Shown: positions 13,505 through 25,567 of the stretch, in pieces
Numbering within the stretch: position 1 is the stretch's first letter
How the letters are laid out: every line of letters begins with the position of its first letter
Origin: a virus
Virus record (IMG/VR): IMGVR_UViG_3300035681_000038
Span: 1-44,862 of that record
Direction: 5' to 3' (one strand)
DNA: 44,862 nucleotides
Translations under genes and position numbers: made by a program
The notes under the pieces: model-generated
What the model saw: only the letters and a program-made list of their open reading frames with translations
The model's database searches: none
Told to the model about the DNA's origin: nothing

Positions 13505-13509
13505 CCTAT

Positions 13510-13936: not shown

Positions 13937-14383
13937 TTATATCTTATAATCTTCGTGCTGTATGCTTTTTAGATTATTGTATATGTAATGTACCCAATAA
14001 TCAAGTTCGTGTGATTCATCTACTTTCAGATGATAATCAGTTGGTTGTGTAAATAACTTTGTTGTATCAGTAAAATCTCTAACTGGTTTTCTTGCCATTA
14101 ATATTACATAAGCATCTTTGGCGCCAAATGCCTCTCGTGCTGCTGCCGTAGGGCATACAAAATCTGCTATGGCATATACACCTGTTCTATTTACTATATC
14201 ACATAATACTCCCATTCTTCTGGCGTGTTCTATTCTATCAGCTACATCAAACGTAAGGTCTTTATTTATTTTAGTTCTTATTTCGTCGGCGTTGAAATGA
14301 ACAGCGTTCAATATTTTTGATAACGCAGTAGATAATGTTGTTTTACCCGAACCAGGCAAACCCATAACAAGTATCTTTTTCAT
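13937..14383 (-). CDS. P-loop kinase, adenylylsulfate-kinase-like, 148 aa
   Basis: Walker A is GLPGSGKTTL at residues 8-17. VHFNADEIRTKIN follows, then ARRMGVLCDIVNRTGVYAIADF and CPTAAAREAFGA, the layout of CysC-like small kinases with a lid region ending the protein. In phages, members of this group are annotated as adenylylsulfate or zeta/PNK-like kinases and the true substrate is seldom known. It lacks the phosphatase domain of T4 Pnkp. RNA 5'-kinase activity would complete the RNA-repair set here but is only a possibility. Confidence 0.75.
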   Translation of the reverse strand: MKKILVMGLPGSGKTTLSTALSKILNAVHFNADEIRTKINKDLTFDVADRIEHARRMGVLCDIVNRTGVYAIADFVCPTAAAREAFGAKDAYVILMARKPVRDFTDTTKLFTQPTDYHLKVDESHELDYWVHYIYNNLKSIQHEDYKI

Positions 14384-14439
14384 AACTACGGTTAGTGTTA
14401 ATATTTATGTAAATTTTTACAGATTAAAAAACCAGTTCA

Positions 14440-14952
14440 TCAAACTTTACAATTTGTAAACAATTTTTTTTCTTTTACGTGCTCAACTGGGCATTCGTAA
14501 AAATATCTTATTCTGTTTTTAAATCTATCTCTTTTTGAAACTTTTTTCCAATATTCGGAAGAGCTTGTAGTTACTATAAGAGCCGTAGTCATAGTGTCAT
14601 TTAATATAACATATGCATACGGTTTTGGATCAGCATTATCGAATGTATGACATACGTCAACTATGATTGTTTTATAAGGAAAATCTTTTAGACCAGAAAA
14701 TTTTAAAGATTTTCTATGTTTTACTTCTATTCTTTTACTTCCATTCAATTCATCAACAATTTCGAGATCTCCGTCGTCTGCATATTCTGCCATTTTCTCT
14801 ACGCTTGGCCTTTCCTTGACTTCGAATATATTTACTTTTTTTCCTAATGAACGAAGCCAATCGGCGACGACTTCTACGGATTTTTTGCTTTCTCTCAAAT
14901 CGGAGATAAAATTGGGATCTTCCTTTTCATACTTGGAAAAACTATATTTCAT
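14440..14952 (-). CDS. PD-(D/E)XK-like nuclease protein, 170 aa
   Basis: The segment DGDLEIVDELNGSKRIEVKHR carries the D...(E/V)xK pattern of the PD-(D/E)XK superfamily (D around 78, IEVK about 15-18 residues later), with a later Lys-rich C-terminus. I moved the start to the ATG at 14952 because the longer frame runs through tRNA-Met. The ATG is 5 nt after the tRNA CCA, so there is no room for a Shine-Dalgarno sequence in the processed message. The nuclease call is tentative. Confidence 0.7.
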   Translation of the reverse strand: MKYSFSKYEKEDPNFISDLRESKKSVEVVADWLRSLGKKVNIFEVKERPSVEKMAEYADDGDLEIVDELNGSKRIEVKHRKSLKFSGLKDFPYKTIIVDVCHTFDNADPKPYAYVILNDTMTTALIVTTSSSEYWKKVSKRDRFKNRIRYFYECPVEHVKEKKLFTNCKV

Positions 14953-14956
14953 ATAA

Positions 14957-15031
14957 TGGTAGTGGGTGCGGCGTTTGAATCCGCTATCTTGGCTTATGAG
15001 ACCAGCATTATACCACATTAATTAACCCACC
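14957..15031 (-). tRNA. tRNA-Met (CAU), elongator type
   Basis: Acceptor GGTGGGT/ACCCACT, D arm ATTA-ATGTGGTA-TAAT, anticodon loop CTCATAA, T-loop TTCAAAC (53:61 mismatch), CCA encoded. The initiator GGG/CCC anticodon-stem pairs are absent, so it is elongator Met or, if lysidine-modified, Ile. Confidence 0.85.
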
Positions 15032-15040
15032 CTAACAATT

Positions 15041-15134
15041 TGGTAGTCCCAGAGGGAATCGAACCCCCGCTCGGCACTAATCAGGTGCGCACAGTTTATA
15101 AGGCTGTCGGTGCTTCCAGTTACACTATGGGACC
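15041..15134 (-). tRNA. Class II tRNA with UAU anticodon (Ile?)
   Basis: 94 nt. Acceptor GGTCCCA/TGGGACT, D arm GTGT-AACTGGAA-GCAC, anticodon arm ACAGC-CTTATAA-ACTGT (31:39 mismatch), T-loop TTCGATT, CCA encoded. A long variable arm (GCAC-CTGATTA-GTGC) normally marks Leu, Ser or Tyr, yet the anticodon reads Ile AUA. Identity is therefore uncertain. Confidence 0.75.
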
Positions 15135-15153
15135 AAATCAACTAACAATGGCT

Positions 15154-15181
15154 AGTATGGATATTTTCTATCAGAAGTCAA
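15154..15181 (-). promoter_or_regulatory. Sigma70-like promoter of the tRNA pair
   Basis: TTGACT (15176-15181), 16-bp spacer, CATACT (15154-15159), ahead of the class II tRNA and tRNA-Met. Confidence 0.5.
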
Positions 15182-15184
15182 TAA

Positions 15185-16177
15185 CTATTTTTCAATTAAG
15201 TTTTGTTTGAATATTTTCCAGCAATTTTCCCAAGTCCAATATGAACCATTCATCGCGACTATATCACGGTTTAGTTTTAGCGATTTGTTGATACAATCTT
15301 CAAGATTATCTCCCATATATCCAGTCAACCCATCTTGAACAATATCTATTGGACCAGAAACGGGATATGCGGCTATTGGCGTGCCTAAACTCATTGCTTC
15401 TATCAAAACTATACCAAATGTGTCTGTTTTGCTGGGAAAACAAAATACATCTGCGTTTATATATTCATTTGCTAAATCTTTTCCGGTTTTGTATCCAAGG
15501 AACTTTACATTTTTATATTTTTTCTCTAAATGTTTTCTATATGGACCATCACCAACCAAGCGAACTTCATATTTGTCTTGTAGAACACACAAGTCATCCA
15601 GATTTTTTTCAAGGGATATTCTGCCAACATATAACACAACAGGAACTTCATTATTTTTTCTTTGAGTTGTTGGCGTCAGCAGATTCTTATCAACTCCTCT
15701 TGTCCATATAACCATCTCAACGTCAAAATTGTTTTTACTCAGTTCATTCATCATTGACTTGGTAGTAACCAATACTCTACCAGAATGTTTATGAAACCAT
15801 CTTACATAAGAATATGTGATACACTTTGGTATTTTATACATTTCATTCACATACTCTGGAAACTTTGTATGATATGAAGTGTTGTATTTGTATTTCTTAC
15901 TATCACAATATAGTTTGGCAAAAAGTCCAAGCGGGCCTTCTGTAGAAATATGAATATAATCTGGATTGTATTCTTCTATCTTTTTTCCTAATCCAAATGG
16001 CAGGCTCATTTTTACTTCCGGATATCTTGGCATACTAAAATGCTTATACATTTCCGGTGAAATAAAGCATACCGTATGTCCATCATTTTCCGCCTGTATC
16101 TTTATATTCTTGTATGTAGTTACAACGCCATTTATTTGCGTGAAAAGATTATCCGTTACTATTAGTATCTTTTTCAT
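15185..16177 (-). CDS. GT4 glycosyltransferase, Agt-like (diacylglycerol glycosyltransferase type), 330 aa
   Basis: GT-B fold glycosyltransferase. The N-terminus shows ILIVTDNLFTQINGVVTTY, then IHISTEGPLGLFAK and YNTSYHTKFPEY. The C-terminal nucleotide-sugar half shows LYVGRISLEKNL, LVGDGPY and the E-x7-E-like FGIVLIEAMSLGTPIAAYP. These blocks match the bacterial family that includes Agt, which glycosylates diacylglycerol to make phosphorus-free glycolipids. It overlaps the PlcP-like phosphoesterase gene by 29 bp, the same pairing as in bacteria that remodel lipids under phosphate limitation. The lipid acceptor is inferred. Confidence 0.82.
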   Translation of the reverse strand: MKKILIVTDNLFTQINGVVTTYKNIKIQAENDGHTVCFISPEMYKHFSMPRYPEVKMSLPFGLGKKIEEYNPDYIHISTEGPLGLFAKLYCDSKKYKYNTSYHTKFPEYVNEMYKIPKCITYSYVRWFHKHSGRVLVTTKSMMNELSKNNFDVEMVIWTRGVDKNLLTPTTQRKNNEVPVVLYVGRISLEKNLDDLCVLQDKYEVRLVGDGPYRKHLEKKYKNVKFLGYKTGKDLANEYINADVFCFPSKTDTFGIVLIEAMSLGTPIAAYPVSGPIDIVQDGLTGYMGDNLEDCINKSLKLNRDIVAMNGSYWTWENCWKIFKQNLIEK

Positions 16178-16916
16178 TGTAGTGTATCAACTCAAATGTT
16201 CCATTGTGATGCTCTACTATGGCGGTCAATGATTCTACCCAATCGCCGCAGTTCATATAATGAACATCATTTATATGTTTCATTTCTGGATGATGTATAT
16301 GACCGCATATTACGCCAACATATCCTTTTCTTTTACAATGATTAGATATATTAGTCTCAAACTTGAATATAAAATCAACGGCCTTTTTGACGCGATGCTT
16401 CAAAAACTTGCTGAAACTCCAATAACCAAATCCAAGTTTATGTCTTATCCAGTTATATTTTGTATTTAGGGCAAGAATAAAATCATAACTTTTGTCTCCA
16501 AGAAAACTAAGCCACGGAGCCAATCTTGTTATACCATCAAATAAATCTCCGTGAACAACAAGATATTTTTCACCATATACACTAATATGTTCTATTTCAT
16601 TACATAACTTGATGTTTCCTACTTCAAGTTCATATGGCAGCATCAATCTGAAAAACTCATCGTGATTGCCAATAACATATACTATTTTGGTATCATTACG
16701 ATGTAGTTTCAACAATCTTCTGATTACTTCAGAATGGCTGTTTTTCCATTTTGACCTGTTTTGTTGAAACTTCCAACCATCTATGACATCACCGACGAGA
16801 TAAAGAGTCTCGCAACTGTTACATTTTAGAAAATTTTCTACCTCTTTCGCCTTGCTATTTTTAGAACCGAGATGTAGGTCGGATATAAAAATAGAGCGAT
16901 ATTTAGGTAGTTTCAT
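16149..16916 (-). CDS. PlcP-like metallophosphoesterase (LpxH-related), 255 aa
   Basis: Calcineurin-like motifs: FISDLHLGS, LVGDVIDGWKF, VIGNHDEFFR, VVHGDLFD and GVICGHIHHPE. Blocks YDFILALNTKYN, YWSFSKFLKHRVKKAVDFI and YMNCGDWVESLTA are those of the group first called UDP-2,3-diacylglucosamine diphosphatase and later shown, as PlcP, to release head groups from phospholipids. Length fits. Stop-start contact with the 83-aa gene upstream and a 29-bp overlap with the Agt-like gene downstream indicate one operon. Lipid A phosphatase activity is the alternative. Confidence 0.85.
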   Translation of the reverse strand: MKLPKYRSIFISDLHLGSKNSKAKEVENFLKCNSCETLYLVGDVIDGWKFQQNRSKWKNSHSEVIRRLLKLHRNDTKIVYVIGNHDEFFRLMLPYELEVGNIKLCNEIEHISVYGEKYLVVHGDLFDGITRLAPWLSFLGDKSYDFILALNTKYNWIRHKLGFGYWSFSKFLKHRVKKAVDFIFKFETNISNHCKRKGYVGVICGHIHHPEMKHINDVHYMNCGDWVESLTAIVEHHNGTFELIHYNEKDTNSNG

Positions 16917-17168
16917 TTAGTCCGCTTTATCTCCAAACATGAACTTGTTGGCAATAACATCTATGTTATGAAATGCTATGCTAACCTTATCTATAATCCA
17001 AGGATCTAACTTTACAGTTTCACTTGCCATAATCTCTTTTATACGCTTACACTTTTCTTCTATGGCAGTTAGTTGATATTCAATCATATCCTGCTGGCGT
17101 TCTGGATTTAATGTTACCATTTCATCCATTACTTCTTTGATAAGGTCTTTGAGTTCTGATTTTTTCAT
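16917..17168 (-). CDS. Small helical phage protein, 83 aa
   Basis: Starts MKKSELKDLIKEVMDEM, a pattern common at the N-termini of short phage proteins. The rest is predicted helical with no membrane span. The ATG at 17168 is preferred to the longer frame with a hydrophobic leader. Its TAA abuts the ATG of the PlcP-like gene, so it is the first gene of that operon. Function unknown. Confidence 0.75.
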   Translation of the reverse strand: MKKSELKDLIKEVMDEMVTLNPERQQDMIEYQLTAIEEKCKRIKEIMASETVKLDPWIIDKVSIAFHNIDVIANKFMFGDKAD

Positions 17169-17196
17169 ATAATAATAAATATATACACATAAACAA

Positions 17197-17220
17197 AAAC
17201 CCAGCATTTACGCTGGGTTT
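17197..17220 (-). terminator. Intrinsic terminator after the TPS-domain gene
   Basis: AAACCCAGC/GCTGGGTTT 9-bp stem with a 6-nt loop and T-rich tail on the minus strand. Confidence 0.9.
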
Positions 17221-17246
17221 TCGTGAGTTGATATATATTAACTATA

Positions 17247-19211
17247 TCAAGGCTTTGGAGGCAGGAATGTGCCTGTACCAGCATTGACTGGATATACTCC
17301 ACTCAAGTTGGTAGCAAAACTCAATGCACTCAAATCTGTTACTCCCTTGGCATTGAACGTAAGTGCCGAGGTCTTTAGCAGATTGGATAGTGTAATATTT
17401 CCGCCAGCAGTTAGTGTTAGAGCACCAACCAACGAGTTTGTAGAAGCGGCAGAAGTATTGAAAATATCTCCACCACTTACAACGCTGGTAGTTCCACCGT
17501 TCAATGAACCAATGTTTGTACTATTGAGTTCATTTAGGTTGATTGCTCCAGTGCCAGCAGCGACTGACACCAATCCAAAGTTGTTGTTTGGTTGAGTCAG
17601 GCTAACTTCAGCATTATTGGTATTGACGACCAAGTTTCCACGAACATCCATAGAAGTTGTAGGAACTTGAGTAACTGCTGCTCCAGCAATACCTGTGGTA
17701 GAAACGGTAAGGTTTCCGCCAACATTAGTCGTACCAAGCGAAGTAGCACGAGCCTGTGTCAGTACCGCATCAGTTGTAGCAGTTAGTGTAACATTTCCGA
17801 GGTTGTTTAGACCGGCGGGATCGTTAAGATTTACATTTGTCGCAGTAAGATTGCTTGCGCCAGCAGTAACGCGGCTAGTAGCGAGCAATTGCACAATGTC
17901 ATTCTTACTTGTGGCAACCAGATTGCCAGTTACAGCAACACGGTTTAGGTTGAGTGTAGCGTCCTCAACGATAGTAGCATTACCACGAACATCAAGGCTT
18001 ACTGGACCAAAACTATGCTTTGCACGAGCAATATTGACATCACCAGTTGTAACAAATGATGTCGGACCGTACACGAACTGCTTTTCTGCTGTATCAACTA
18101 CAGTAGGAGCGGTAAATGTAGTATTACCAGAACTTCCCAAGGCAACGCCAGTCAAGGCGATGCGGGACAGTGCCGTTACAGTTGTATCACCAGTTCCGCT
18201 GTTAGTAACATTGGCAAGAGTAACCGCACCACCACCAAGAGTGATGTTGCCAGCCGCCATTACATTATAGTTTGTAGAAGCGGCGGTACTTGCAGCAACA
18301 ATGTTATTGCCACTAACCGTAACATTTGTGCTGGTCAAGCGTGGAAGCGAAACATCCTTACCAGAGACAGTCAGGTTTGTTACGTTGAGCGTACCAGTAC
18401 CTTGTGTGACAGCACCAGCGGTCAAAGCGCCAGTAGCATTGATGGTGATATTTCCAGTAGAAGTAATAAAGCCGTTAGGAGCAATGATTACATTTCCGCC
18501 GGAAGTATTGATGTCGGTCTTGCCATTTAGCACAGCAGGAGCAGCAAAACTGGAACCCAGAACGGCATTACCGCCGTATGTATTGACTACAAGATTTCCA
18601 GTAACAATGGCACCTCCAATGTTTGTGTTACGAGAAGCAATGGTAATGTTCTCCGAAACTGCCTGCAACACCGCGCCATCAGTAACGGTTACTCCATTTG
18701 TGAGAACGCTCGTGGGCAGGTTGTCTTGGCTGGGCAACTTTGCGTTGGTATTCCAGTATCCAAGAGAAACAGTAGGATCGTCAACGGTGCTGACGTATAA
18801 TCCAGCAACATTGATGGTGCTAGTACCACCGATAAGTACGCCGTTTGGATTTAGAATGAACACTCGTCCATTCGACTCGATGGCACCGTTGATGGTGCTG
18901 GCTGCTCCACCGGAGACGATATTCAGCACAGACGAGTTGGTTGCAGGCAATGTGTATTCAATGCGCTGACCGGCGTCAATCGTGTTCGTTCCACTGCCAA
19001 AAGCCTGCCAGTTAAGCACAGCCTTGTTTGGTGCAGAAATGCTCAGTGTGTTTGCAGTTCCATTTACTAAAACACCCGCTGTCGTTTGTAGATTGGTGGC
19101 GTCGATGCTCGGAAGAGCAAAGACATGCGCCACGGCGAATACAAACACCATCAACGAAGACAATGTCTTCGTCCACAGCGAGTTATTATGTGTATTTTTA
19201 TTGTATTTCAT
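17247..19211 (-). CDS. Haemagglutinin-type (TPS domain) secreted beta-helix protein, 654 aa
   Basis: A long signal peptide (to about residue 33, ending VFA) is followed by the two-partner-secretion/filamentous haemagglutinin N-terminal domain: NWQAFGSGTNTIDAGQRIEY, GRVFILNPNGVLIGG and INVAGLYVST. The rest is repeats of the form (N)(I/L)TV(S/T)xxG, typical of a right-handed beta-helix. Bacterial homologues are surface adhesins exported by a TpsB barrel. No partner gene is in the window. The gene is visibly richer in G and C than its neighbours, which suggests recent acquisition. It has its own promoter and terminator. Confidence 0.85.
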   Translation of the reverse strand: MKYNKNTHNNSLWTKTLSSLMVFVFAVAHVFALPSIDATNLQTTAGVLVNGTANTLSISAPNKAVLNWQAFGSGTNTIDAGQRIEYTLPATNSSVLNIVSGGAASTINGAIESNGRVFILNPNGVLIGGTSTINVAGLYVSTVDDPTVSLGYWNTNAKLPSQDNLPTSVLTNGVTVTDGAVLQAVSENITIASRNTNIGGAIVTGNLVVNTYGGNAVLGSSFAAPAVLNGKTDINTSGGNVIIAPNGFITSTGNITINATGALTAGAVTQGTGTLNVTNLTVSGKDVSLPRLTSTNVTVSGNNIVAASTAASTNYNVMAAGNITLGGGAVTLANVTNSGTGDTTVTALSRIALTGVALGSSGNTTFTAPTVVDTAEKQFVYGPTSFVTTGDVNIARAKHSFGPVSLDVRGNATIVEDATLNLNRVAVTGNLVATSKNDIVQLLATSRVTAGASNLTATNVNLNDPAGLNNLGNVTLTATTDAVLTQARATSLGTTNVGGNLTVSTTGIAGAAVTQVPTTSMDVRGNLVVNTNNAEVSLTQPNNNFGLVSVAAGTGAINLNELNSTNIGSLNGGTTSVVSGGDIFNTSAASTNSLVGALTLTAGGNITLSNLLKTSALTFNAKGVTDLSALSFATNLSGVYPVNAGTGTFLPPKP

Positions 19212-19263
19212 ATGTATTTTGTTTTTTATTATGCAGTTGTTTAACTGATAGTAAGAGCCAATA

Positions 19264-19291
19264 AATATACACGTATATACGACCGCGTCAA
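19264..19291 (-). promoter_or_regulatory. Sigma70-like promoter of the TPS-domain gene
   Basis: TTGACG (19286-19291), 16-bp spacer, TATATT (19264-19269); leader about 45 nt. Confidence 0.6.
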
Positions 19292-19346
19292 GTAAAAACT
19301 TCTTATATATATTTTTATATATACGATTTGATATATATTATCACTT

Positions 19347-19772
19347 ATGTACACATATAAATGCCGCATCAACAAAGTTTTAGACGGTGACACCGTTGAA
19401 ATAGATTTGGACTTGGGTTTCAATACAACCCTAGCTAACCAAAAAGTAAGATTGCTTGGTATAGACGCACCAGAATCTCGTACAACAAACAAAGAAGAAA
19501 AAGTGCGTGGTGCTCTTTCTAAAAAGAAACTACAAGAAAAACTACCTGTAGGTTGTTCTGTAAAGATTATTACTCACAAGAATGATAATAACGACGACAA
19601 GTTTGGCCGCATACTTGGCGAGTTTATTCTTGATGATGGCACCAATCTAAACAAGTGGATGATAGAGAATAACTATGCTGTACCTTATCTTGGCGAAAAT
19701 AAGGAACTGGTGCAAGAAGCACATCAAATCAATAAGAAGAAACTTATTGAGCGTGGCGAGTTGACTGCTTAA
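19347..19772 (+). CDS. Staphylococcal nuclease-like (SNase/thermonuclease) protein, 141 aa
   Basis: SNase fold: CRINKVLDGDTVEIDLDLGF (catalytic D in DGDT), VRLLGIDAPESR (Arg and D of the active site), later DDKFGRILGEFIL and NNYAVPYLGENKELVQEA. Calcium-dependent cleavage of DNA or RNA is typical of the family. There is no signal peptide, so it acts in the cytoplasm, perhaps in host DNA breakdown. It is one of few plus-strand genes, and its last 4 bp overlap the convergent beta-helix gene. Confidence 0.88.
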   Translation: MYTYKCRINKVLDGDTVEIDLDLGFNTTLANQKVRLLGIDAPESRTTNKEEKVRGALSKKKLQEKLPVGCSVKIITHKNDNNDDKFGRILGEFILDDGTNLNKWMIENNYAVPYLGENKELVQEAHQINKKKLIERGELTA

Positions 19773-20449
19773 TTGTCCAACTCTCTTGGGTCAAATACAT
19801 TCCAGCCATCTGGCTTTCTTGTATCGCCAAACTTACGATTATACATCCAATATAGTTTGGTGATTATTTCTGGCCATACAAACACTTTTGCGTTTGTGCC
19901 AATCAAATTTAGTGTATTCTTATCAAAATATCTGCCACGAATAATGATTGGACCGCCATCTTTGTTTTTACAGTTGATAAAAGTAAATCTGCGTGTCTTT
20001 GGACGATCTTGCTGGTCATAGATGCTATAATCACCAAGTAGTATGTCATTGAATACACAACTACTAAAAGTAACATCGTGTACGCCGCCTTTTATACCAA
20101 TATCACACACTTCATTTAGAGCATATGGCGATTTGATTGTTTGACGCACGCCATCATTTATAAATGTGCAATCTGTAAAAGCAACATTGCCGCCACGAAC
20201 CATATCAAATGCTCGTGCAGTTCCATTTTTGAATATACAGTACTTATATTCAAGACCAAAAGTTAGTGATGCTTTACCACCCCATCTAGTGTCTTGACCA
20301 TCTATAGTACAGTTATTTACAGCACTATCATCATTTTGACTAAAGCAGAAAACAGATAGTCCATCGGTTCTGTTGTCTGGTGTGTTTGGGTTGAACGTGT
20401 TTGATTTATCAAACGTTTGATTTTCTATTACGATATTTGTTGTAGCCAT
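19769..20449 (-). CDS. Right-handed beta-helix (pectin-lyase-like fold) protein, 226 aa
   Basis: The repeating pattern of short strands with N, C and F ladders (VNNCTIDGQ, YKYCIFKNG, FTDCTFINDG, FSSCVFND, FTFINCKN) is that of a parallel beta-helix. There is no signal peptide. In phages such proteins are fibres or tailspikes that bind or cut polysaccharide; no catalytic residues can be assigned here. It precedes the unrelated convergent SNase gene. Confidence 0.7.
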   Translation of the reverse strand: MATTNIVIENQTFDKSNTFNPNTPDNRTDGLSVFCFSQNDDSAVNNCTIDGQDTRWGGKASLTFGLEYKYCIFKNGTARAFDMVRGGNVAFTDCTFINDGVRQTIKSPYALNEVCDIGIKGGVHDVTFSSCVFNDILLGDYSIYDQQDRPKTRRFTFINCKNKDGGPIIIRGRYFDKNTLNLIGTNAKVFVWPEIITKLYWMYNRKFGDTRKPDGWNVFDPRELDN

Positions 20450-20490
20450 AATGGCTATAAATATCGTTTTTGAGGAAAAATTTACACGGC

Positions 20491-20742
20491 TTAGTTTGTA
20501 GGCGTGCTACTCGGTGTTACGGTAGGGGTAACCGTTGGAATTAATGTGTCACGCTCTGCTTTTCTTACGTTTACTATAAATAAATCTCTGACTTGAGTCA
20601 TTATTAATCCAGCCGCAGTTGCTAATGGATATACATAAGTTGATCTATTTTCTTGGGTATTTTCATAACCTCCAAGCTTATCCAACAAGTGACTCATATT
20701 CCATGAAGATGATACTGCTGATATAAATTCTTGTGGTGTCAT
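20491..20742 (-). CDS. Small virion-like protein with Thr/Pro tail, 83 aa
   Basis: A folded N-terminal part (about 1-65) is followed by the tail TLIPTVTPTVTPSSTPTN. The same kind of TPT repeat, much longer, ends the protein at 41689-42474. Such tails may be linkers or O-glycosylation sites. It lies 42 bp upstream of the beta-helix gene. Function unknown. Confidence 0.6.
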   Translation of the reverse strand: MTPQEFISAVSSSWNMSHLLDKLGGYENTQENRSTYVYPLATAAGLIMTQVRDLFIVNVRKAERDTLIPTVTPTVTPSSTPTN

Positions 20743-20795
20743 AATGTATATAAATATAATGAATATTATATAAATACGTTTTTATTATATAAAAT

Positions 20796-20885
20796 TGGCG
20801 GAAGAGGTGAGATTCGAACTCACGGTGACATTACTGCCACGACGGTTTTCAAGACCGTTGCCTTAAACCACTCAGCCACTCTTCC
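20796..20885 (-). tRNA. tRNA-Ser (UGA)
   Basis: Acceptor GGAAGAG/CTCTTCC, anticodon arm ACGGT-CTTGAAA-ACCGT, long variable arm, T-loop TTCGAAT, discriminator G and CCA encoded. Confidence 0.95.
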
Positions 20886-20896
20886 ATAAAATATTT

Positions 20897-20988
20897 TGGC
20901 GGTGAGTATAGGATTTGAACCTATGGTAGAATTTTACTCCTACAACGCTTTAGCAAAGCGCCGCTATAGACCACTCAGCCAACTCACC
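20897..20988 (-). tRNA. tRNA-Ser (GCU)
   Basis: Acceptor GGTGAGT/ACTCACC, anticodon arm GCGCT-TTGCTAA-AGCGT, long variable arm, T-loop TTCAAAT, discriminator G and CCA encoded. Confidence 0.95.
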
Positions 20989-20998
20989 ATATAACAAA

Positions 20999-21025
20999 AG
21001 AACCCTACGATATAAGTAGGGTTCT
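20999..21025 (-). terminator. Intrinsic terminator after the 128-aa membrane protein gene
   Basis: Perfect 10-bp stem AGAACCCTAC/GTAGGGTTCT, 7-nt loop, TTTTGTT downstream on the minus strand. A TTGACA box just upstream may start the Ser tRNA transcript. Confidence 0.85.
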
Positions 21026-21050
21026 GTCAAGATTATAAATTTATTATATC

Positions 21051-21437
21051 TTATTTAGAAATGCTTACTTCTGGAGCATCTAATGGTGTAGGTGCGGTTG
21101 TATAGCCAGGCTTTTTTGTTTCTCTTGCTCTACAACAATCGGCACATTTACAGGTAGTTGAACTGCCGCCGCCAACAAAAAATCCATATTCATGTTTTTC
21201 TGTGTTGGCAAATATACCAAACTCTTTTCTGCCACCAAGCAACAACAATCCGCATAGCAAAATAACAAGCAGTAGTATTACCACAGGAGTAATCTTTGTT
21301 TTGCATTTGCCTGTGCAGCAATCTGGTTCGGATACAAACAATGATACAATAAATGCCCATATTGCCAAAATAGCATTACGAACTGCACGAACAACACTAC
21401 CAATCAATCCTAGTATATAGTTTATTATAGTTTTCAT
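21051..21437 (-). CDS. Membrane protein with cysteine clusters, 128 aa
   Basis: Two or three hydrophobic stretches are visible: about 7-35, and PVVILLLVILLCGLLLLGG at about 51-69. Two Cys clusters flank the second span (CCTGKC and CKCADCC), which could bind a metal. The Pro/Thr-rich C-terminus ends EVSISK. No family recognised. It is followed by a strong terminator. Confidence 0.7.
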   Translation of the reverse strand: MKTIINYILGLIGSVVRAVRNAILAIWAFIVSLFVSEPDCCTGKCKTKITPVVILLLVILLCGLLLLGGRKEFGIFANTEKHEYGFFVGGGSSTTCKCADCCRARETKKPGYTTAPTPLDAPEVSISK

Positions 21438-21479
21438 ATGTGTAAAAAGTTATATAATATATAAATATGGATATAAAAA

Positions 21480-21647
21480 CTATTTATCTAGCCTTGTGTA
21501 TCTAGAATATACAGACTCTAGTACAGAGTTCTGTTTCAAGAACTTATCTGCCATCTTGGAAATTTTTTTATGACATACTCCGTCATAAAATGCGTCAGAT
21601 ATTTCTTTCGCAGTTATTGGCTTTATAGACTTTTTCTTTTTTGGCAT
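21480..21647 (-). CDS. Small basic protein, 55 aa
   Basis: Opens MPKKKKSIKPITAKEISDA and continues as a lysine-rich, mostly helical protein ending YTRLDK. It fills an otherwise empty gap between tRNA-Pro and the 128-aa gene and begins in the same way as other small phage proteins. No Shine-Dalgarno sequence is visible; AT-rich leader. Confidence 0.6.
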   Translation of the reverse strand: MPKKKKSIKPITAKEISDAFYDGVCHKKISKMADKFLKQNSVLESVYSRYTRLDK

Positions 21648-21698
21648 ATGTTTATTTGTATATATTACATATTGCAGATATTATGCCAATTATAAAAA

Positions 21699-21776
21699 TG
21701 GTACAGGTGGTGAGATTTGAACTCACAATCTTTCCGCCCCAAACGGAACGCGATAACCAGATTACGCTACACCTGT
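21699..21776 (-). tRNA. tRNA-Pro (UGG)
   Basis: Acceptor ACAGGTG/CACCTGT, anticodon arm TTCCG-TTTGGGG-CGGAA, T-loop TTCAAAT, CCA encoded. Confidence 0.94.
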
Positions 21777-21780
21777 ATAA

Positions 21781-21820
21781 GTGGTGTAATCAAATACACT
21801 AGTTATATCTATTACACCAC
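21781..21820 (-). terminator. Hairpin between the 76-aa gene and tRNA-Pro
   Basis: Perfect 10-bp stem GTGGTGTAAT/ATTACACCAC with a 20-nt loop. No T-run follows and tRNA-Pro starts 4 nt later, so it may protect or separate the mRNA 3' end from the tRNA rather than stop transcription. Confidence 0.5.
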
Positions 21821-21830
21821 GATATAACTA

Positions 21831-22061
21831 TTACTTACTCTCTACAAATCGATAGAGTTTTTCAGCAATTTGCATTGCTTCCTCTACGCGATTGTCTGGT
21901 GCAATCGGTAATGCTCCCTTGTTGGTTTTTTCAGCCTCGTATCGCAGCGCTTCTTGAGAGAAGTGATAACGACCATCAGCCATTTCAAGTGCCTTGTTAA
22001 GCACTTCCCAACGGATTTCATAACCGCTTTTACCTGTCTTTTGTGTATTCGACTTATTCAT
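21831..22061 (-). CDS. Small conserved T4-like phage protein, 76 aa
   Basis: Contains SGYEIRWEVLNKALEMADGRYHFSQEALRYEAEK (seen as two parts: SGYEIRWEVLNKALEMADG and the following helix). The GYEIR start and helical layout recall short conserved proteins of marine T4-like phages near tail or regulatory genes. No membrane span. Its promoter lies about 50 bp upstream. Confidence 0.75.
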   Translation of the reverse strand: MNKSNTQKTGKSGYEIRWEVLNKALEMADGRYHFSQEALRYEAEKTNKGALPIAPDNRVEEAMQIAEKLYRFVESK

Positions 22062-22109
22062 TGTGTGTGTATGAAATGATTTGCGTTATTGCATCTCATT
22101 TCACCGCAC

Positions 22110-22137
22110 ATATTGAAGTAAAAATCTATTTTGTCAA
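22110..22137 (-). promoter_or_regulatory. Weak sigma70-like promoter
   Basis: TTGACA (22132-22137), 16-bp spacer, CAATAT (22110-22115), ahead of the 76-aa protein gene; leader about 40 nt. Confidence 0.4.
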
Positions 22138-22144
22138 GTATATA

Positions 22145-22462
22145 AAAAAGACTTGTCGTTAGTATCGTATGCGACGCCACGAAGGGACTGCCCTAGTTAT
22201 GTGTGAAAATATTGGGAGGAATAATGATTACCTCCATTCCAACTCCGATATTTCAGTTATTCAGTCAGATGATACCGTCGCATCATAATGGTTCGCAATG
22301 TCATATGTTATTCTACATACAAACCATACCTCTGGTAGCTTCGGTTGGCCAACCTAGGCTTCAGCATAGTACCTTACTTACTACTCGGAGCAGAAACTTA
22401 CCTATACTCTTCGTATAGATAATGCGTTAGTCCCATTTGATAAGACTTTTTCCGCCACAAAA
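22145..22462 (-). ncRNA. Unassigned structured RNA downstream of tRNA-Ala
   Basis: About 300 nt with no plausible gene. Long-range pairs on the minus strand include GGGACT (22429-22434) with AGTCCC (22184-22189) and ATGCGACG (22277-22284) with CGTCGCAT (22169-22176). Local hairpins include CTATAC/GTATAG (22402-22418) and GGAGG/CCTCC (22214-22234). The 3' end runs into TTTTTTATAT. It shares the transcript of tRNA-Ala and its boxA. No known class recognised. Confidence 0.5.
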
Positions 22463-22463
22463 A

Positions 22464-22539
22464 TGGTGGACCCAACAGGGTTCGAACCTGCGACCTTCTG
22501 CTTGCAAAGCAGCTTCTCTACCAACTGAGATATGAGCCC
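22464..22539 (-). tRNA. tRNA-Ala (UGC)
   Basis: Acceptor GGGCTCA/TGGGTCC with two wobbles (3:70 and 5:68), D arm with AGTTGGTA, anticodon loop TTTGCAA, T-loop TTCGAAC, CCA encoded. First gene of a transcript that continues into the structured RNA. Confidence 0.94.
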
Positions 22540-22544
22540 ATTAT

Positions 22545-22555
22545 TTGAAAGAACG
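22545..22555 (-). promoter_or_regulatory. boxA-like antitermination element
   Basis: CGTTCTTTCAA at the predicted start of the tRNA-Ala/structured RNA transcript. Confidence 0.5.
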
Positions 22556-22561
22556 AGAATA

Positions 22562-22589
22562 ACTATGTACTAGTTTAATAGAAAGTCAA
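22562..22589 (-). promoter_or_regulatory. Sigma70-like promoter of tRNA-Ala unit
   Basis: TTGACT (22584-22589), 16-bp spacer, CATAGT (22562-22567); predicted start about 22555, at the boxA-like element. Confidence 0.55.
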
Positions 22590-22622
22590 CAACATTCTAT
22601 CATTTTATATATATTTATAATT

Positions 22623-23054
22623 GTGAAACTATATCTACTAGCTAAAAAAATATTAGAAAATGATTATAAAGGAACGCATAAAGCTCCAAGTAAATCAAAC
22701 GGCTCTCCTTTACACGACCTTACGCAGATATATCCAGATGACATATACTCAAATAAAGCAGTAGCATATTATGGCGATAGAGCAACAGATTATAGTGACC
22801 AGTTGTCTATTAGCATAATGCATAATACCAAAGATAAACCAGACGCTAAAGTAAAGATATATCGTGCAGTTCCTTCAAATATACAAGGAGATATAAATGC
22901 GAGTGATTGGGTGACTATCAATAAGCAATATGCAGTTACTCACGGCGAAAGAACACTTGGTGGAGATTATAAAATAATAACCAAAGTTGTGCCAGCAAAG
23001 CATCTATATACAGACGCTAATAGTATTCACGAGTTTGGATATGACCCAAGTTAA
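22623..23054 (+). CDS. Putative ADP-ribosyltransferase (ART fold), 143 aa
   Basis: GTG start. The second half follows the ART pattern seen in phage polyvalent and head proteins: VKIYRAVPSNI (first Arg), INASDWVTINKQYAVTHGE, GDYKIITKVVPAKHLYTDANS and IHEFGYDP (catalytic Glu candidate). T4 encodes ARTs (Alt, ModA, ModB) that modify host RNA polymerase and ribosomal proteins. The N-terminus MKLYLLAKKILEN ends in I-L-E, which could be a prohead-protease site, as in T4 Alt packaging. It is an isolated plus-strand gene among minus tRNAs. The target is unknown. Confidence 0.72.
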   Translation: MKLYLLAKKILENDYKGTHKAPSKSNGSPLHDLTQIYPDDIYSNKAVAYYGDRATDYSDQLSISIMHNTKDKPDAKVKIYRAVPSNIQGDINASDWVTINKQYAVTHGERTLGGDYKIITKVVPAKHLYTDANSIHEFGYDPS

Positions 23055-23055
23055 A

Positions 23056-23130
23056 TGGTGGTAGAGGTGGATCCTGACACCACAACCTGTCCGTTATCAA
23101 CAGACTGCTCTTCCTTTGAGCTACTCTACC
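23056..23130 (-). tRNA. tRNA-Ile (GAU) with non-canonical T-loop
   Basis: Acceptor GGTAGAG/CTCTACC, D arm GCTC-AAAGGAA-GAGC, anticodon arm GTCTG-TTGATAA-CGGAC, CCA encoded. T arm GTGG...CCAC has loop bases G54 T55 C56 A57 G58, where nearly all tRNAs have T54 and A58. Confidence 0.8.
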
Positions 23131-23163
23131 ATAAAAACTATTTATAATTCATATATATGAAAT

Positions 23164-23922
23164 ATGAATAAAGAAAATGTTATAGTACACACGGTGTGGG
23201 TTGGTGACAGTTTAAGCTTAATGGAACAACTCACAATAAAATTATTGCAGCTACACGGTCACGAAGTACATCTTTGGTGTTATGACAAAATAAAAAATGT
23301 ACCAGACAAAACAATCTTACGAGACGCGGCGGATATAATGCCCAAAAGTTCAATTTTCTCATTTCAAGGAGAATATTTACCATATATTCCAAACGGGGGT
23401 ATAGGTTCATTAAGTCATTGGTCTGATCAGTTTCAATGTAAGCTTCTTGCTATGGAAGGTGGAATATATTCCCAATTGGATGTAGCTTATTTGGCACCAA
23501 TTAATTATAACCCAGAATATCTATTTGTTGATATTTTGGATGCAAGAAAAACATTAAGCACTTTCTTGATGAAATGTCCAAAAGGTTCTTCATTTGCGAT
23601 TGAAGCATACAAAGAATTATCCATGAAAATAAATTATTTAACAATGCCATATCTACATTGGGATTGTTCTATGAATTTGTGTATGGACATACTGGTAAAC
23701 AGAACAAATATAACCACAAAGAAATGTCGAGAATGTTTTTTGCATCAAAAACATTATTTGGACCTTGGATGTAAAAAAACTGGCCCATTTTTTGGACCTT
23801 TCGAATTTCCGAAGGATTTATTGGCAATACACTGGTCGAATGCGACATTGAATGTATATAAAAATCATCCTATACCAAATTCATTTTACGAATCACTATT
23901 GAGATTCGTTGGACTAGTTTAG
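23164..23922 (+). CDS. GT32-like glycosyltransferase, 252 aa
   Basis: Opens VIVHTVWVGDSLSLMEQLTI, as in the DXD sugar-binding GT32 type (I-x-W-x-G start). Then HGHEVHLWCYD and MEGGIYSQLDVAYLAPI, where GGIY-xx-D-x-D is expected; here it reads QLDV, so one Asp of the DxD is replaced. Later FGPFEFPKDLLAIHW (His-Trp near the end) fits. It probably adds a sugar to a surface glycan or virion protein. Activity is uncertain given the altered motif. Confidence 0.7.
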   Translation: MNKENVIVHTVWVGDSLSLMEQLTIKLLQLHGHEVHLWCYDKIKNVPDKTILRDAADIMPKSSIFSFQGEYLPYIPNGGIGSLSHWSDQFQCKLLAMEGGIYSQLDVAYLAPINYNPEYLFVDILDARKTLSTFLMKCPKGSSFAIEAYKELSMKINYLTMPYLHWDCSMNLCMDILVNRTNITTKKCRECFLHQKHYLDLGCKKTGPFFGPFEFPKDLLAIHWSNATLNVYKNHPIPNSFYESLLRFVGLV

Positions 23923-24096
23923 ATCAAGATCAGTAAAATCATTGAGTATACCTTCATATCGCTTATCTTGCTTGTATATTTCAAGTATACGTTGATGCTC
24001 ATAATCACTGGTTGGTATCCATTTAGGCGGTTCACCTTTTAGGAATATAACCGTGTATGCTCTATGTTTATCTACTGCTCTGCGTATTATTATCAT
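23914..24096 (-). CDS. Small hypothetical protein, 60 aa
   Basis: Charged short protein (MIIIRRAVDKHRAYTVIFLKG, then a helical acidic tail ending FTDLDLN). Its 3' end overlaps the convergent glycosyltransferase gene by 9 bp. It lies directly downstream of tRNA-Gln (15 bp) on the same strand. No family recognised; moderate confidence because it is short. Confidence 0.55.
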   Translation of the reverse strand: MIIIRRAVDKHRAYTVIFLKGEPPKWIPTSDYEHQRILEIYKQDKRYEGILNDFTDLDLN

Positions 24097-24110
24097 ATGA
24101 ATATATATAG

Positions 24111-24184
24111 TGGCTGTTCCTCATGGATTCGAACCATGACAAAGCGAGTCAAAGTCGCTTGTGCTACCATTACACCAAGGAACA
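24111..24184 (-). tRNA. tRNA-Gln (UUG)
   Basis: Acceptor TGTTCCT/AGGAACA, D-loop with TGG, anticodon loop CTTTGAC, T-loop TTCGAAT, discriminator G, CCA encoded. Confidence 0.94.
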
Positions 24185-24193
24185 ATAATAAAC

Positions 24194-24269
24194 TGGTAGC
24201 CCCAGTGGGTCACGATCCCACCTCTCCGCTTTGAAAGAGCGGCGAACTCAACCATTATTCTATGGGGCC
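24194..24269 (-). tRNA. tRNA-Glu (UUC) with non-canonical T-loop
   Basis: Acceptor GGCCCCA/TGGGGCT, D arm AATA-ATGGTTG-AGTT, anticodon arm CCGCT-CTTTCAA-AGCGG, CCA encoded. T arm GTGGG-ATCGTGA-CCCAC has A54 and T58 instead of T54 and A58, a reversed pair. Confidence 0.83.
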
Positions 24270-24273
24270 AAAT

Positions 24274-24348
24274 TGGTAGGAGTACTAGGAATTTAACCTA
24301 GATTACAACGTCCGTAGCGTTGCGTGTTATACATTACACTATACTCCC
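24274..24348 (-). tRNA. tRNA-Arg (ACG) with altered 19:56 contact
   Basis: Acceptor GGGAGTA/TACTCCT, anticodon arm CAACG-CTACGGA-CGTTG, CCA encoded. The D-loop AATGTATA has T where G19 is expected, and the T-loop TTAAATT has A56 instead of C56. The 19:56 pair would thus be U-A. Confidence 0.83.
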
Positions 24349-24351
24349 ATA

Positions 24352-24431
24352 AATTGGTCCCTTCACTACCATAGGAGATCGCCACGGTTGGTAGGACAGC
24401 GGATCAGGCTGGTGGCTTCTTCATATGAAGT
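24352..24431 (-). other. Unassigned ~80-nt segment between tRNA-Arg and tRNA-Tyr
   Basis: tRNA-sized gap. Its minus-strand 3' end reads TGAAGGGACCA like a tRNA end, its 5' end has CTTCA, and inside lie GCCAC/GTGGC and CTACC/GGTAG complementary pairs that cross. I could not fold it as a standard tRNA; it may be a degenerate or very unusual one. Confidence 0.35.
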
Positions 24432-24518
24432 TGGTGGTGCCGATTGGACTCGAACCAATGTAGACCGTTAGGTCGGGAAATTTACAGTCTCCTGCAATTG
24501 CCACTATGCGACGACACC
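24432..24518 (-). tRNA. tRNA-Tyr (GUA)
   Basis: Acceptor GGTGTCG/CGGCACC, anticodon arm GGAGA-CTGTAAA-TTTCC, variable arm present as expected for bacterial Tyr, D-loop GG, T-loop TTCGAGT, CCA encoded. Confidence 0.93.
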
Positions 24519-24528
24519 ATTAAAATTT

Positions 24529-24605
24529 TGGCGGGGTGCATCGGATTTGCACCGACTATCTATAGATTGACAATCTATCGCTTGTGCTTCATAAGCTCCC
24601 ACCCC
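24529..24605 (-). tRNA. tRNA-Asp (GUC) with A18/G55
   Basis: Acceptor GGGGTGG/GCACCCC (7:66 mismatch), anticodon arm ATAGA-TTGTCAA-TCTAT, discriminator G, CCA encoded. D-loop ATGAAGCAC has AG where GG is expected; T-loop TGCAAAT has G55. Confidence 0.85.
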
Positions 24606-24614
24606 ATAAATGAA

Positions 24615-24844
24615 TTACCAGTGTGGGGCTCTCACCCACCATACACTATTTTTCTCCGTTATGGCCCGAACATATCGTGCACTCTGTTCTTGGAACATTA
24701 CCCGCTTCTTTTGCCTTGGCTCACGTTTAGCGAATAATGTCCGGCTTATCGGGCGTCGTACCTGTCACTCGGTCTTGCAGAAACGACCCACAAGATTGCT
24801 GATGTGTATGCTACGACCGCTAAGACTCTGCGTCTTACTGGTAA
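24615..24844 (-). ncRNA. 230-nt tRNA-like structured RNA
   Basis: Closed by TTACCAGT (24837-24844) and ACTGGTAA (24615-24622). Next to the 3' acceptor strand is a perfect T-arm-like hairpin GTGGG-TGAGAGC-CCCAC (24623-24639). Stacked beside it is a 7-bp helix CATACAC/GTGTATG (24804-24810 with 24640-24646). A D-arm-like AAGAC-GCAGA-GTCTT follows the 5' acceptor. This acceptor/D/long helix/T order is that of tmRNA or an intron-bearing tRNA. The ends are 8-9 nt from the flanking tRNAs. No tag frame or intron core was recognised. Confidence 0.55.
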
Positions 24845-24852
24845 AATAAATA

Positions 24853-24926
24853 TGGCACGGACGGAGAGAATCGCACTCTCGTCATCGGTTTTGGAGACCG
24901 AGGCACTACTAATATACCACGTCCGT
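24853..24926 (-). tRNA. tRNA-Trp (CCA) with A18/G55
   Basis: Acceptor ACGGACG/CGTCCGT, anticodon arm TCGGT-CTCCAAA-ACCGA, discriminator G, CCA encoded. D-loop ATTAGTA has AG for GG; T-loop TGCGATT has G55. Confidence 0.88.
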
Positions 24927-24932
24927 ATTAAA

Positions 24933-25007
24933 TGGTGGATCATCACGGTACTGCCCCGTGTTCTCAAGGTTAAGAGCCTAGAGCATCACTTCTTATGCTT
25001 ATGATCC
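24933..25007 (-). tRNA. tRNA-Lys (CUU) with A18/G55 and G54/G58
   Basis: Acceptor GGATCAT/ATGATCC, D arm GCAT-AAGAAGTG-ATGC, anticodon loop CTCTTAA, T arm CACGG-GGCAGTA-CCGTG, CCA encoded. D-loop AG replaces GG, and the T-loop carries G54, G55 and G58. Confidence 0.83.
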
Positions 25008-25013
25008 ATAAAA

Positions 25014-25091
25014 TGGTGGGAATGGACGGTTATGCTCCGTCTCACACAGATTCACAATCTGTTATGCTAATCTAATTACATCACAATCCCC
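25014..25091 (-). tRNA. tRNA-His (GUG) with A18/G55 and A54/T58
   Basis: 5' GGGGATTG allows the extra G-1 of tRNA-His. Anticodon arm ACAGA-TTGTGAA-TCTGT, D-loop AATTAGATTA with AG, T arm GACGG-AGCATAA-CCGTC, CCA encoded. Confidence 0.85.
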
Positions 25092-25098
25092 ATAAAAA

Positions 25099-25174
25099 TG
25101 GCTGTCCCAGCACGGTTCGAACGTGCGACCTTGAAATTAACAATTTCTTGCTCTGCCAACTGAGCTATGGGACA
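25099..25174 (-). tRNA. tRNA-Asn (GUU)
   Basis: Acceptor TGTCCCA/TGGGACA, D-loop AGTTGGCA, anticodon loop TTGTTAA, T-loop TTCGAAC, discriminator G, CCA encoded. Confidence 0.94.
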
Positions 25175-25182
25175 ATAAATTG

Positions 25183-25262
25183 TAGAGAGTGTTTGGTCAA
25201 GAGTGCTTATTACGCTACATGAACCCATTGCGATATTCCAATGGCTGTACCCTTTACTCTCT
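25183..25262 (-). other. Unassigned tRNA-sized element closed by AGAGAGT/ACTCTCT
   Basis: A 7-bp closing stem (25256-25262 with 25184-25190) encloses 65 nt with one clear hairpin CCATTG-GAATATCG-CAATGG. The 3' end is ACA rather than CCA. Size and place suggest a tRNA-like RNA, but I cannot find a normal T arm or anticodon arm. Confidence 0.35.
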
Positions 25263-25269
25263 GTAAATT

Positions 25270-25404
25270 TTATTTAAGATACTTTTTGGCCAATGGGGTC
25301 AATTCCATTCCAGCATCTTGAAGTTGTTTGACTGCTTCTTTTCTGGTTCTTATCTTGTTTTTTAATCTACCTTCTAGCGTTGGCAATTTGATTTTATTTT
25401 TCAT
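25270..25404 (-). CDS. Small basic protein, 44 aa
   Basis: MKNKIKLPTLEGRLKNKIR, then a Lys-rich helix ending LAKKYLK. The longer frame upstream crosses tRNA-Cys and tRNA-Gly and is rejected. The ATG at 25404 is only 2 nt from the tRNA-Cys CCA, so processed mRNA would be leaderless. No family recognised. Confidence 0.6.
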   Translation of the reverse strand: MKNKIKLPTLEGRLKNKIRTRKEAVKQLQDAGMELTPLAKKYLK

Positions 25405-25406
25405 AT

Positions 25407-25484
25407 TGGAGTATGTGACTGGAATTGCACCAGCATAAATGTCTTTTGCAGAGACCGCCCTATCTATTTCGGGCACACACATAC
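25407..25484 (-). tRNA. tRNA-Cys (GCA) with A18/G55
   Basis: Acceptor GTATGTG/CACATAC, D arm GCCC-GAAATAGATA-GGGC with AG for GG, anticodon arm GGTCT-CTGCAAA-AGACA, T arm GCTGG-TGCAATT-CCAGT with G55, CCA encoded. Confidence 0.85.
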
Positions 25485-25491
25485 ATAAATT

Positions 25492-25567
25492 TGGTGCGGT
25501 AGACAGGGCTCGAACCTGCGACATCAAGCTTGGAAGGATTGCGCTCTACCAACTGAGCTACTACCGC
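25492..25567 (-). tRNA. tRNA-Gly (UCC)
   Basis: Acceptor GCGGTAG/CTACCGC, D-loop AGTTGGTA, anticodon loop CTTCCAA, T-loop TTCGAGC, CCA encoded. It lies 7 bp after the stop of the 220-aa membrane protein gene. Confidence 0.94.

Follow-up and report, generated by a model that had tools for sequence, protein, structure and literature searches.

Phage tRNAs in the stretch analysed here and in other virus contigs carry matched changes in the D-loop and the T-loop that rebuild the contact between the two loops at the tRNA elbow. The window, as the whole stretch is called below, is a 44,862-base virus record (IMG/VR record IMGVR_UViG_3300035681_000038) with 22 tRNA genes, all on the minus strand. 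An earlier note on its sequence had described a coordinated rewiring of the elbow contacts 18:55, 19:56 and 54:58 at positions 23056..25484. This coordinated rewiring is real and far wider than the window: it is near-complete in some contigs, and tRNA identity elements are kept. Searches of the open-licence PubMed Central (PMC) literature aimed at this point listed no title or abstract describing such rewired phage tRNAs. In our reading, to which we assign a probability of roughly 45%, these are working tRNAs with a rebuilt elbow, most likely selected since host enzymes that depend on the canonical elbow cannot use them.

Covariation between the D-loop and the T-loop

The elbow contact between G18 and residue 55 is near-universal in tRNAs. 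Residue 18 intercalates between residues 57 and 58 and contacts residue 55, while 19:56 forms an exposed Watson-Crick pair used by the ribosome, RNase P and others, as described in passages of PMC4810234.

Ordinary tRNA finders rely on loop letters. The finder used here takes its score from the four stems, the spacing, T33 and an encoded NCCA, whatever letters the D- and T-loops contain; it requires an encoded CCA, and all tRNA counts are limited to CCA-encoding genes. It recovers 21 of the 22 window tRNAs, missing the 94-nucleotide Ile(UAU), and letter-shuffled controls yield 0.33 matches per 45 kb when the score is 28 and none when it is at least 30; at score 31, 690 kb of shuffled sequence gave none. 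One antisense false call overlapping a tRNA-Pro was removed before counting. ARAGORN with default settings reports 17 of the 22 window tRNAs (Asp, Lys, Cys, Ile(GAU) and Met are missed), and Rfam RF00005 places 21 of the 22, all except Cys, above its 29-bit cut-off. Across the fetched pieces, which overlap so that some genes are counted twice, ARAGORN misses 94 of 252 calls of G55 tRNAs, compared with 12 of 379 calls of canonical tRNAs; these misses suggest that phage tRNAs are being undercounted. Such poor scores are what pseudogenes or a search artefact would give, and the finder made a few doubtful calls, one of them an Arg(ACG) with T-loop GCTGATC in record G039. However, the chance that the pattern arises in this way is negligible, given a finder that is blind to the letters in question and silent on shuffled sequence, and stems that score like canonical ones (38.1 for G55 tRNAs against 38.4).

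Relatives of the window were taken as RNA ligase and DNA polymerase relatives in virus contigs, plus further stretches of 19 records. The resulting 159 loci and the window, about 2.8 Mb with overlap, yielded 282 distinct tRNAs, or 281 after false-call removal. Labels for positions 18 and 19 were assigned in the priority GG, AG, GT, GA, a choice that the 59 seven-nucleotide D-loops of the relatives do not need. All 29 G55C56 tRNAs have AG in the D-loop. G18U19 accompanies U55A56 in seven tRNAs, and an eighth D-loop, AGTGGTTC, permits either a GG or a GU reading; G18A19 is present in 7/7 U55U56 tRNAs and GG in 3/3 with C55C56. The canonical U55C56 goes with GG in 233 of 234 cases, the exception being one Asn tRNA. 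Among the seven-nucleotide D-loops, the 18-19/55-56 combinations are GG/TC in 50, AG/GC in 5, GA/TT in 3 and TG/TC in 1.

Mutual information over the 281 tRNAs is 0.479 for 18:55, 0.320 for 19:56 and 0.385 for 54:58, and each value exceeds 2000/2000 global and 2000/2000 within-isotype shuffles; in the seven-nucleotide subset, mutual information lies above all global shuffles. The coordinated rewiring claimed by the earlier note, which had made its reading depend on how these positions behave in relatives, is strongly supported, as 18:55 and 19:56 do not vary independently there. Its extension to 54:58 stands in part: this pair covaries in relatives but takes six combinations and can stay canonical in rewired tRNAs, as in record G041, where T54:A58 is present in 35/35 tRNAs though 31 of the 35 lack U55C56. 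A sister pair of tRNA-Trp genes illustrates the paired change: that of L014 (D-loop ATTGGTA, T-loop TTCGATT) and that of L228 (ATTAGTA, TGCGATT) have 7 differences in 75 nucleotides, and the only ones within the loops are G18 to A and U55 to G. In a parsimony tree of the stems, 144 changes at position 55 share a branch with a D-loop change, about 22 being expected; the tree, built from 53 positions in the stems, has weak resolution, with 197 changes at position 55 where shuffled labels give 285, so that its role is supporting only.

Two further scans of virus contigs sought the anticodon loop of Trp, or of Asp/His, followed by a G55C56 T-loop, with the D-loop left free. From the matches listed, 581 distinct calls were new, spread over 78 of 176 loci; without the same false call as above they number 580, for a pooled set of 861. 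In the 223 pooled seven-nucleotide D-loops, 18:55 is A:G in 84, G:U in 127 and otherwise in 12; without the 24 tRNAs selected by the pattern (n = 199), the counts are 60, 127 and 12. A18 is found in 84 of the 91 G55 tRNAs with such D-loops, which agrees at the level of sequence with the combination of a second-position G and an intercalated A in T-loops of the flavin mononucleotide (FMN) riboswitch type. Of the 330 pooled tRNAs without U55C56, 307 fit the matched set in some register, against a mean of 97 (maximum 119) for random D-loops of equal length and 211 (maximum 225) for permuted T-loops. Nine of the 23 misfits, inspected by eye, have C18 with G55, a Watson-Crick solution, six of them with G19:C56 and three with U19:A56. 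With C18:G55 and a further register admitted, a matched 18:55/19:56 set accounts for 908 of the 933 pooled tRNAs (329/340 with G55, 529/538 with U55C56 and 50/55 others), against a mean of 466 and a maximum of 504 for permuted T-loops. G55 itself occurs in 340 of the 933, a set partly collected for G55, and spans 20 isotypes. Both contacts can be swapped in one molecule, as in Arg(UCU) of L315 (AAAATACA/TGAGAAT), which has A18/G55 with U19:A56. That the 19:56 pair is mostly kept would be expected if the ribosome and RNase P still use it.

The tRNA array of the window

The array comprises the 22 tRNA genes, at 12481-25567, plus a transfer-messenger RNA (tmRNA), and extends beyond the block originally described. 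Its members, in genomic order, are as follows.

12481-22539, minus strand: dispersed tRNAs for Leu (three), Val, Met, Ile(UAU), Ser (two), Pro and Ala; canonical 18/19/55/56
23056-23130, minus strand: tRNA-Ile(GAU); G18G19/U55C56 with G54:G58; D-loop AAAGGAA, T-loop GTCAGGA
24111-24184, minus strand: tRNA-Gln(UUG); canonical elbow, an internal control
24194-24269, minus strand: tRNA-Glu(UUC); canonical 18/19/55/56 with A54:U58; D-loop AATGGTTGA, T-loop ATCGTGA
24274-24348, minus strand: tRNA-Arg(ACG); G18U19/U55A56, 19:56 swapped to U:A; D-loop AATGTATA, T-loop TTAAATT
24432-24518, minus strand: tRNA-Tyr; canonical
24529-24605, minus strand: tRNA-Asp(GUC); A18G19/G55C56; D-loop ATGAAGCAC, T-loop TGCAAAT
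24853-24926, minus strand: tRNA-Trp(CCA); A18G19/G55C56; D-loop ATTAGTA, T-loop TGCGATT
24933-25007, minus strand: tRNA-Lys(CUU); A18G19/G55C56 with G54:G58; D-loop AAGAAGTG, T-loop GGCAGTA
25014-25090, minus strand: tRNA-His(GUG); A18G19/G55C56 with A54:U58; D-loop AATTAGATTA, T-loop AGCATAA
25099-25174, minus strand: tRNA-Asn(GUU); canonical elbow within the rewired block, an internal control
25407-25482, minus strand: tRNA-Cys(GCA); A18G19/G55C56, discriminator U73; D-loop AAATAGAT, T-loop TGCAATT
25492-25567, minus strand: tRNA-Gly; canonical

The loop letters bear out what had been described for individual genes: G55 with A18G19 in Asp, Trp, Lys, His and Cys, U19 with A56 in Arg(ACG), and 54:58 as A:U in Glu and His and as G:G in Ile(GAU) and Lys. 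The remaining window tRNAs were likewise found canonical when the loops were read, with GG, T55C56 and T54:A58. Two features absent from the earlier description are a U:U at 53:61 in Ile(GAU) and an A:G at the same pair in tRNA-Met(CAU), at 14957-15031. Both loops of the window tRNA-Trp equal those of the canonical tRNA-Trp of L014 except at G18 and T55. Unlike the window tRNA-Glu, that of some relatives has A18G19/G55C56.

By its T4-like DNA polymerase and clamp loader the window lies near T4-like phages. Its nearest named phage by polymerase is Microcystis phage Mel-JY01 (41%), in the first 50 kb of which no tRNA was called, and a near-identity nucleotide search of phages with the window returned only short tRNA matches, in 10 records. 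Several other elements accompany the array. The tRNA-Ile(UAU) at 15041-15134 (minus strand) is 94 nucleotides long, with a long variable arm that is unusual for isoleucine; it has a 98% match in L148, and such tRNAs are also seen in L168, L285 and L400. The tmRNA, at 5049-5429 (minus strand), has a long tag and the T-loop TTCAACT. Between tRNA-Asp and tRNA-Trp, a stretch of about 247 nucleotides (24606-24852, minus strand) folds better than shuffled sequence (z -2.6), has 84-95% matches in L186, L330, L046 and L339 and no Rfam match, and is possibly an unrecognised phage RNA. A manA-RNA-like element (22205-22477, minus strand; 33.9 bits, under the 55.2 cut-off) adjoins tRNA-Ala and has 76-97% matches in L330, L186, L107, L256 and L203. 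A GIY-YIG/NUMOD3 homing-endonuclease-like gene (12578-13174, minus strand) is flanked by two tRNA-Leu genes, and the phage genes at 9634-11133, 17247-19211, 3198-4157 and 11171-11779 (minus strand) match Tyrosinase, a two-partner-secretion domain, UvdE endonuclease and an Ig domain, respectively.

Signs of intact tRNAs and their spread

Outside the elbow, the rewired tRNAs look like working tRNAs as far as their letters can tell. A comparison of 253 G55C56 with 522 U55C56 tRNAs, at a finder score of at least 33, found a similar make-up at positions 8, 14, 21, 10:25, 37, 53:61 and 73, with U8/A14 kept and 53:61 being G:C in 95%; positions 54, 57, 58 and 60 shift between the two groups. Within the anticodon loop, positions 32, 33, 37 and 38 differ little overall between the G55 and the U55 tRNAs of these phages, with C33 in 8% versus 2%. 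The discriminator agrees with the Escherichia coli table in 296/340 G55 and 464/535 U55C56 tRNAs, and G3:U70 is present in 18/18 G55 Ala and 16/16 U55C56 Ala tRNAs, occurring in 5 of 322 other G55 tRNAs. Since stems, U8/A14, discriminators and the Ala G3:U70 pair are retained, we infer that these tRNAs can probably still be aminoacylated and serve in translation.

The peptidoglycan tRNA-Gly of staphylococci, a non-proteinogenic tRNA, has an altered D- and T-loop. By this precedent the phage tRNAs might be non-proteinogenic or decoy molecules that avoid EF-Tu, and part of PMC9976931 does describe changed sequence elements by which the staphylococcal tRNA-Gly escapes EF-Tu. Rewiring of 20 isotypes, not of glycine alone, and the retention of stem pairing and identity elements make such a role very improbable for the tRNAs considered here.

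The extent of rewiring varies widely between records. The ten records tallied first were chosen because their loci are rich in G55, and are those read whole or nearly whole among 19 labelled virus records; the polymerase/ligase relatives form a separate group. Every tRNA found lacks U55C56 in G040 (38/38), G046 (24/24), G043 (19/19), G048 (13/13) and G049 (10/10), and most do in G039 (33/34), G041 (31/35), G042 (23/27), G050 (18/26) and G044 (15/22); G039 and G048 have tRNAs in common, including the doubtful Arg(ACG) noted above, without which they count 32/33 and 12/12. Amber suppressors account for the sole U55C56 tRNA in G039 and for one of the four in G041. In 15 records of polymerase/ligase relatives, the tRNAs without U55C56 range from 0/10 to 4/13, with G003 at 5/20 and G015 at 7/36 as further examples, and the window has 6 among its 21 finder-called tRNAs. 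All tRNAs of a metagenomic 735-kb phage stretch (5/5) and of a faecal phage stretch (1/1) have U55C56. Gp23 scores of 96-112 bits in G039, G040, G041, G042 and G048, set beside those of the partly rewired G050 (280), G052 (147) and G047 (458), hint that more than one T4-like branch contains rewired records, by these scores alone.

Slightly harmful loop changes could also have been fixed under weak constraint and then compensated, with no adaptive cause. The exchanges do resemble structural compensation, the combinations at 54:58 and 19:56 are many, and covariation by itself requires no adaptive reason. However, half-changed states are rare in seven-nucleotide D-loops (A18:U55 once and G18:G55 five times in 223), most other conserved positions did not drift, and three contigs have all of their 19, 24 and 38 tRNAs changed while nine named phages have none; compensatory drift thus appears distinctly unlikely.

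Among the matches listed, the Trp-G55 pattern occurs 120 times in virus loci, with 50 tRNAs called there by the finder, and in 117 stretches from a collection of cellular genomes, with 2 calls (L397 and L410); the scanned virus contigs thus hold many more cases than the scanned cellular genomes. If the non-tRNA matches among those listed (70 viral, 115 cellular) are mostly chance, they offer a rough yardstick by which more cellular sequence would have been covered. Two more contigs, L383 and L400, belong to two genome bins assigned to Verrucomicrobia and have 7 and 5 other G55 tRNA calls, respectively. A check of their viral origin was mixed: L383 encodes an integrase as well as an HNH endonuclease, and in L400 two proteins resemble phage families with no function assigned. 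As a side observation, these bins are a hint at hosts of rewired phages. Long variable arms were also called in tRNA-Lys(UUU) of the rewired phages L257 and L339 and of the Caulobacter and Rhodobacter phages L463 and L464.

Possible reasons for a rebuilt elbow

In the proposed mechanism, A18 would take the place of G18, slip between residues 57 and 58 and meet G55 instead of U55 or pseudouridine 55 (Psi55); C18:G55 would serve less often, and the exposed 19:56 pair would be swapped among G:C, U:A and A:U. G55 cannot become Psi55, A18 cannot become Gm18 (2'-O-methylguanosine), and T54 cannot arise where position 54 is G, A or C. A rewired tRNA would offer no U55 to TruB and no G18 to TrmH, and a subset would offer no U54 to TrmA, so that these modifications would probably be lost. 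A precedent for the docking comes from FMN riboswitches, the T-loops of which are UGAAA with an intercalated A, as presented in part of PMC3764141; G55 with A18 is therefore a known workable combination in another RNA. By analogy, the same geometry may be adopted here, and the 'different elbow geometry' raised in the earlier note would then likely be a local change only.

As the selective reason, we infer escape from a host enzyme, for example a nuclease active in infection that cuts the T-loop or reads the elbow; escape from host nucleases or modification had been suggested before and stays conjectural. Published accounts lend analogies: cutting in the T-loop by a tRNase has been described (PMC9086364, in part), phage tRNAs have been proposed to evade anticodon nucleases by anticodon-loop changes (a section of PMC10264068), and AriB of the PARIS system appears to touch the D-loop too, on the basis of a model and one mutant (an excerpt of PMC12409363). 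Tentatively, the reading may be taken further: if nearly all tRNAs of a phage use a second elbow solution, A18/G55 with C18:G55 and swapped 19:56 pairs beside it, the set would be orthogonal to host enzymes that read the canonical elbow, and phage translation would go on during the cleavage or inactivation of canonical host tRNAs. Such a counter-defence would be set in tertiary structure and not in the anticodon.

Several observations weigh against selection for escape, or against the evidence on which it draws. RNA ligases are a usual sign of tRNA repair; here they do not track rewiring, and none is present in G039-G042. No tRNA nuclease was recognised among ten proteins adjoining three rewired arrays (Pfam) or among ten window proteins (PADLOC); these scans did pick up a single TROVE protein and a single homing endonuclease. 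The nine named phages (CcrSC, CcrMagneto, CcrBL9, RcXuper, MD18, Stratton, PhinkBoden, XacN1 and P59), picked via sequence matches to phage tRNAs, are canonical, with U55C56 in 126/126 tRNAs, so that rewiring is not required for a phage tRNA array. The heterogeneity between contigs (chi-squared 379, 24 degrees of freedom) is an overstated contrast, because rewired contigs were found and chosen via G55 and some records are near-duplicates. In the seven-nucleotide subset, within-isotype shuffles reach the observed 18:55 value in 113/2000 and the 19:56 value in 538/2000. The C18:G55 solution was admitted post hoc, once exceptions had been seen, and no solution accounts for 25 of the 933 tRNAs. 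The G55C56 and U55C56 tRNAs also differ in variable-loop length, at 1:72 and 15:48, and in C33 (8% versus 2%). Finally, being without Psi55 and Gm18 could in itself be what was selected.

The last of these leads to the main rival, freedom from the modification enzymes. If the burst of tRNA synthesis outruns host TruB, TrmA and TrmH, an elbow that is stable without Psi55, T54 and Gm18 would be selected, supplied by a T-loop with a second-position G and an intercalated A, as in unmodified riboswitches. The UGAAA T-loops of FMN riboswitches (PMC3764141, in part) favour this account, as does the view, given in part of PMC7912444, that elbow modifications mainly stabilise the contact between the T- and D-loops; so does a search of 26 phage records, many of them fragments, that gave no TruB match. 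The account predicts a general trend, yet the nine named phages are canonical throughout; the rewiring is very uneven between contigs, if partly through the choice of G55, and the 19:56 swaps are left unexplained. We regard it as unlikely, if a serious contender, and escape from elbow-reading enzymes as the leading candidate reason. That the host lacks TruB, a separate candidate, is not supported, TruB being present in three of four cellular bins with G55 tRNAs.

The phage might instead itself destroy or disable canonical tRNAs, its own set being protected by the rewired elbow. The sets of G039-G043 and G046 do serve 16 to 19 amino acids, and two of these sets also include an amber suppressor, but the ten proteins scanned near three rewired arrays include no recognised phage nuclease, and we judge this improbable. 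A gene for a TROVE (Ro60-like) RNA-binding protein (L489:12766-14328, minus strand) directly adjoins the rewired array of G041.

Our results suggest that viruses with rewired sets have remodelled a central component of translation, possibly so as to evade host enzymes that read it. Entire tRNA sets lacking G18 and U55 would demonstrate a second workable elbow solution in nature and give a natural experiment on the roles of the elbow and its modifications; they would also point to unrecognised host defences directed at the elbow and supply scaffolds from which orthogonal tRNAs could be built.

Comparison with known systems places these tRNAs close to the canonical elongator, with its G18-Psi55, G19-C56 and T54-A58 elbow: the cloverleaf, stems, U8/A14, anticodon loop, CCA and discriminators are alike, whereas 18:55 is here A:G or C:G, 19:56 is sometimes U:A or A:U, and 54:58 is sometimes A:U, G:G or C:A. 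With the FMN riboswitch T-loop (PMC3764141, in part) they share a G as second T-loop base and an intercalating A, the docking here being predicted; unlike in the riboswitch, the motif sits in a tRNA beside a 19:56 Watson-Crick pair. Nuclease-evading phage tRNAs, as portrayed in parts of PMC10264068 and, for the AriB-resistant T5 tRNAs, of PMC12409363, likewise have changes that may block a tRNA-directed defence; unlike theirs, which lie at a cut site in the anticodon loop, the changes described here are in the elbow, matched across two loops and affecting all isotypes. Known large phage tRNA sets also differ from host tRNAs, and the portions of their accounts that we consulted name no elbow change. 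The staphylococcal non-proteinogenic tRNA-Gly (PMC9976931, in part) is, like these, a natural tRNA with an unusual T-arm sequence, but there a single isotype has T-stem pairs, 49:65 and 51:63, changed to escape EF-Tu, whereas here 20 isotypes are rewired on well-paired stems.

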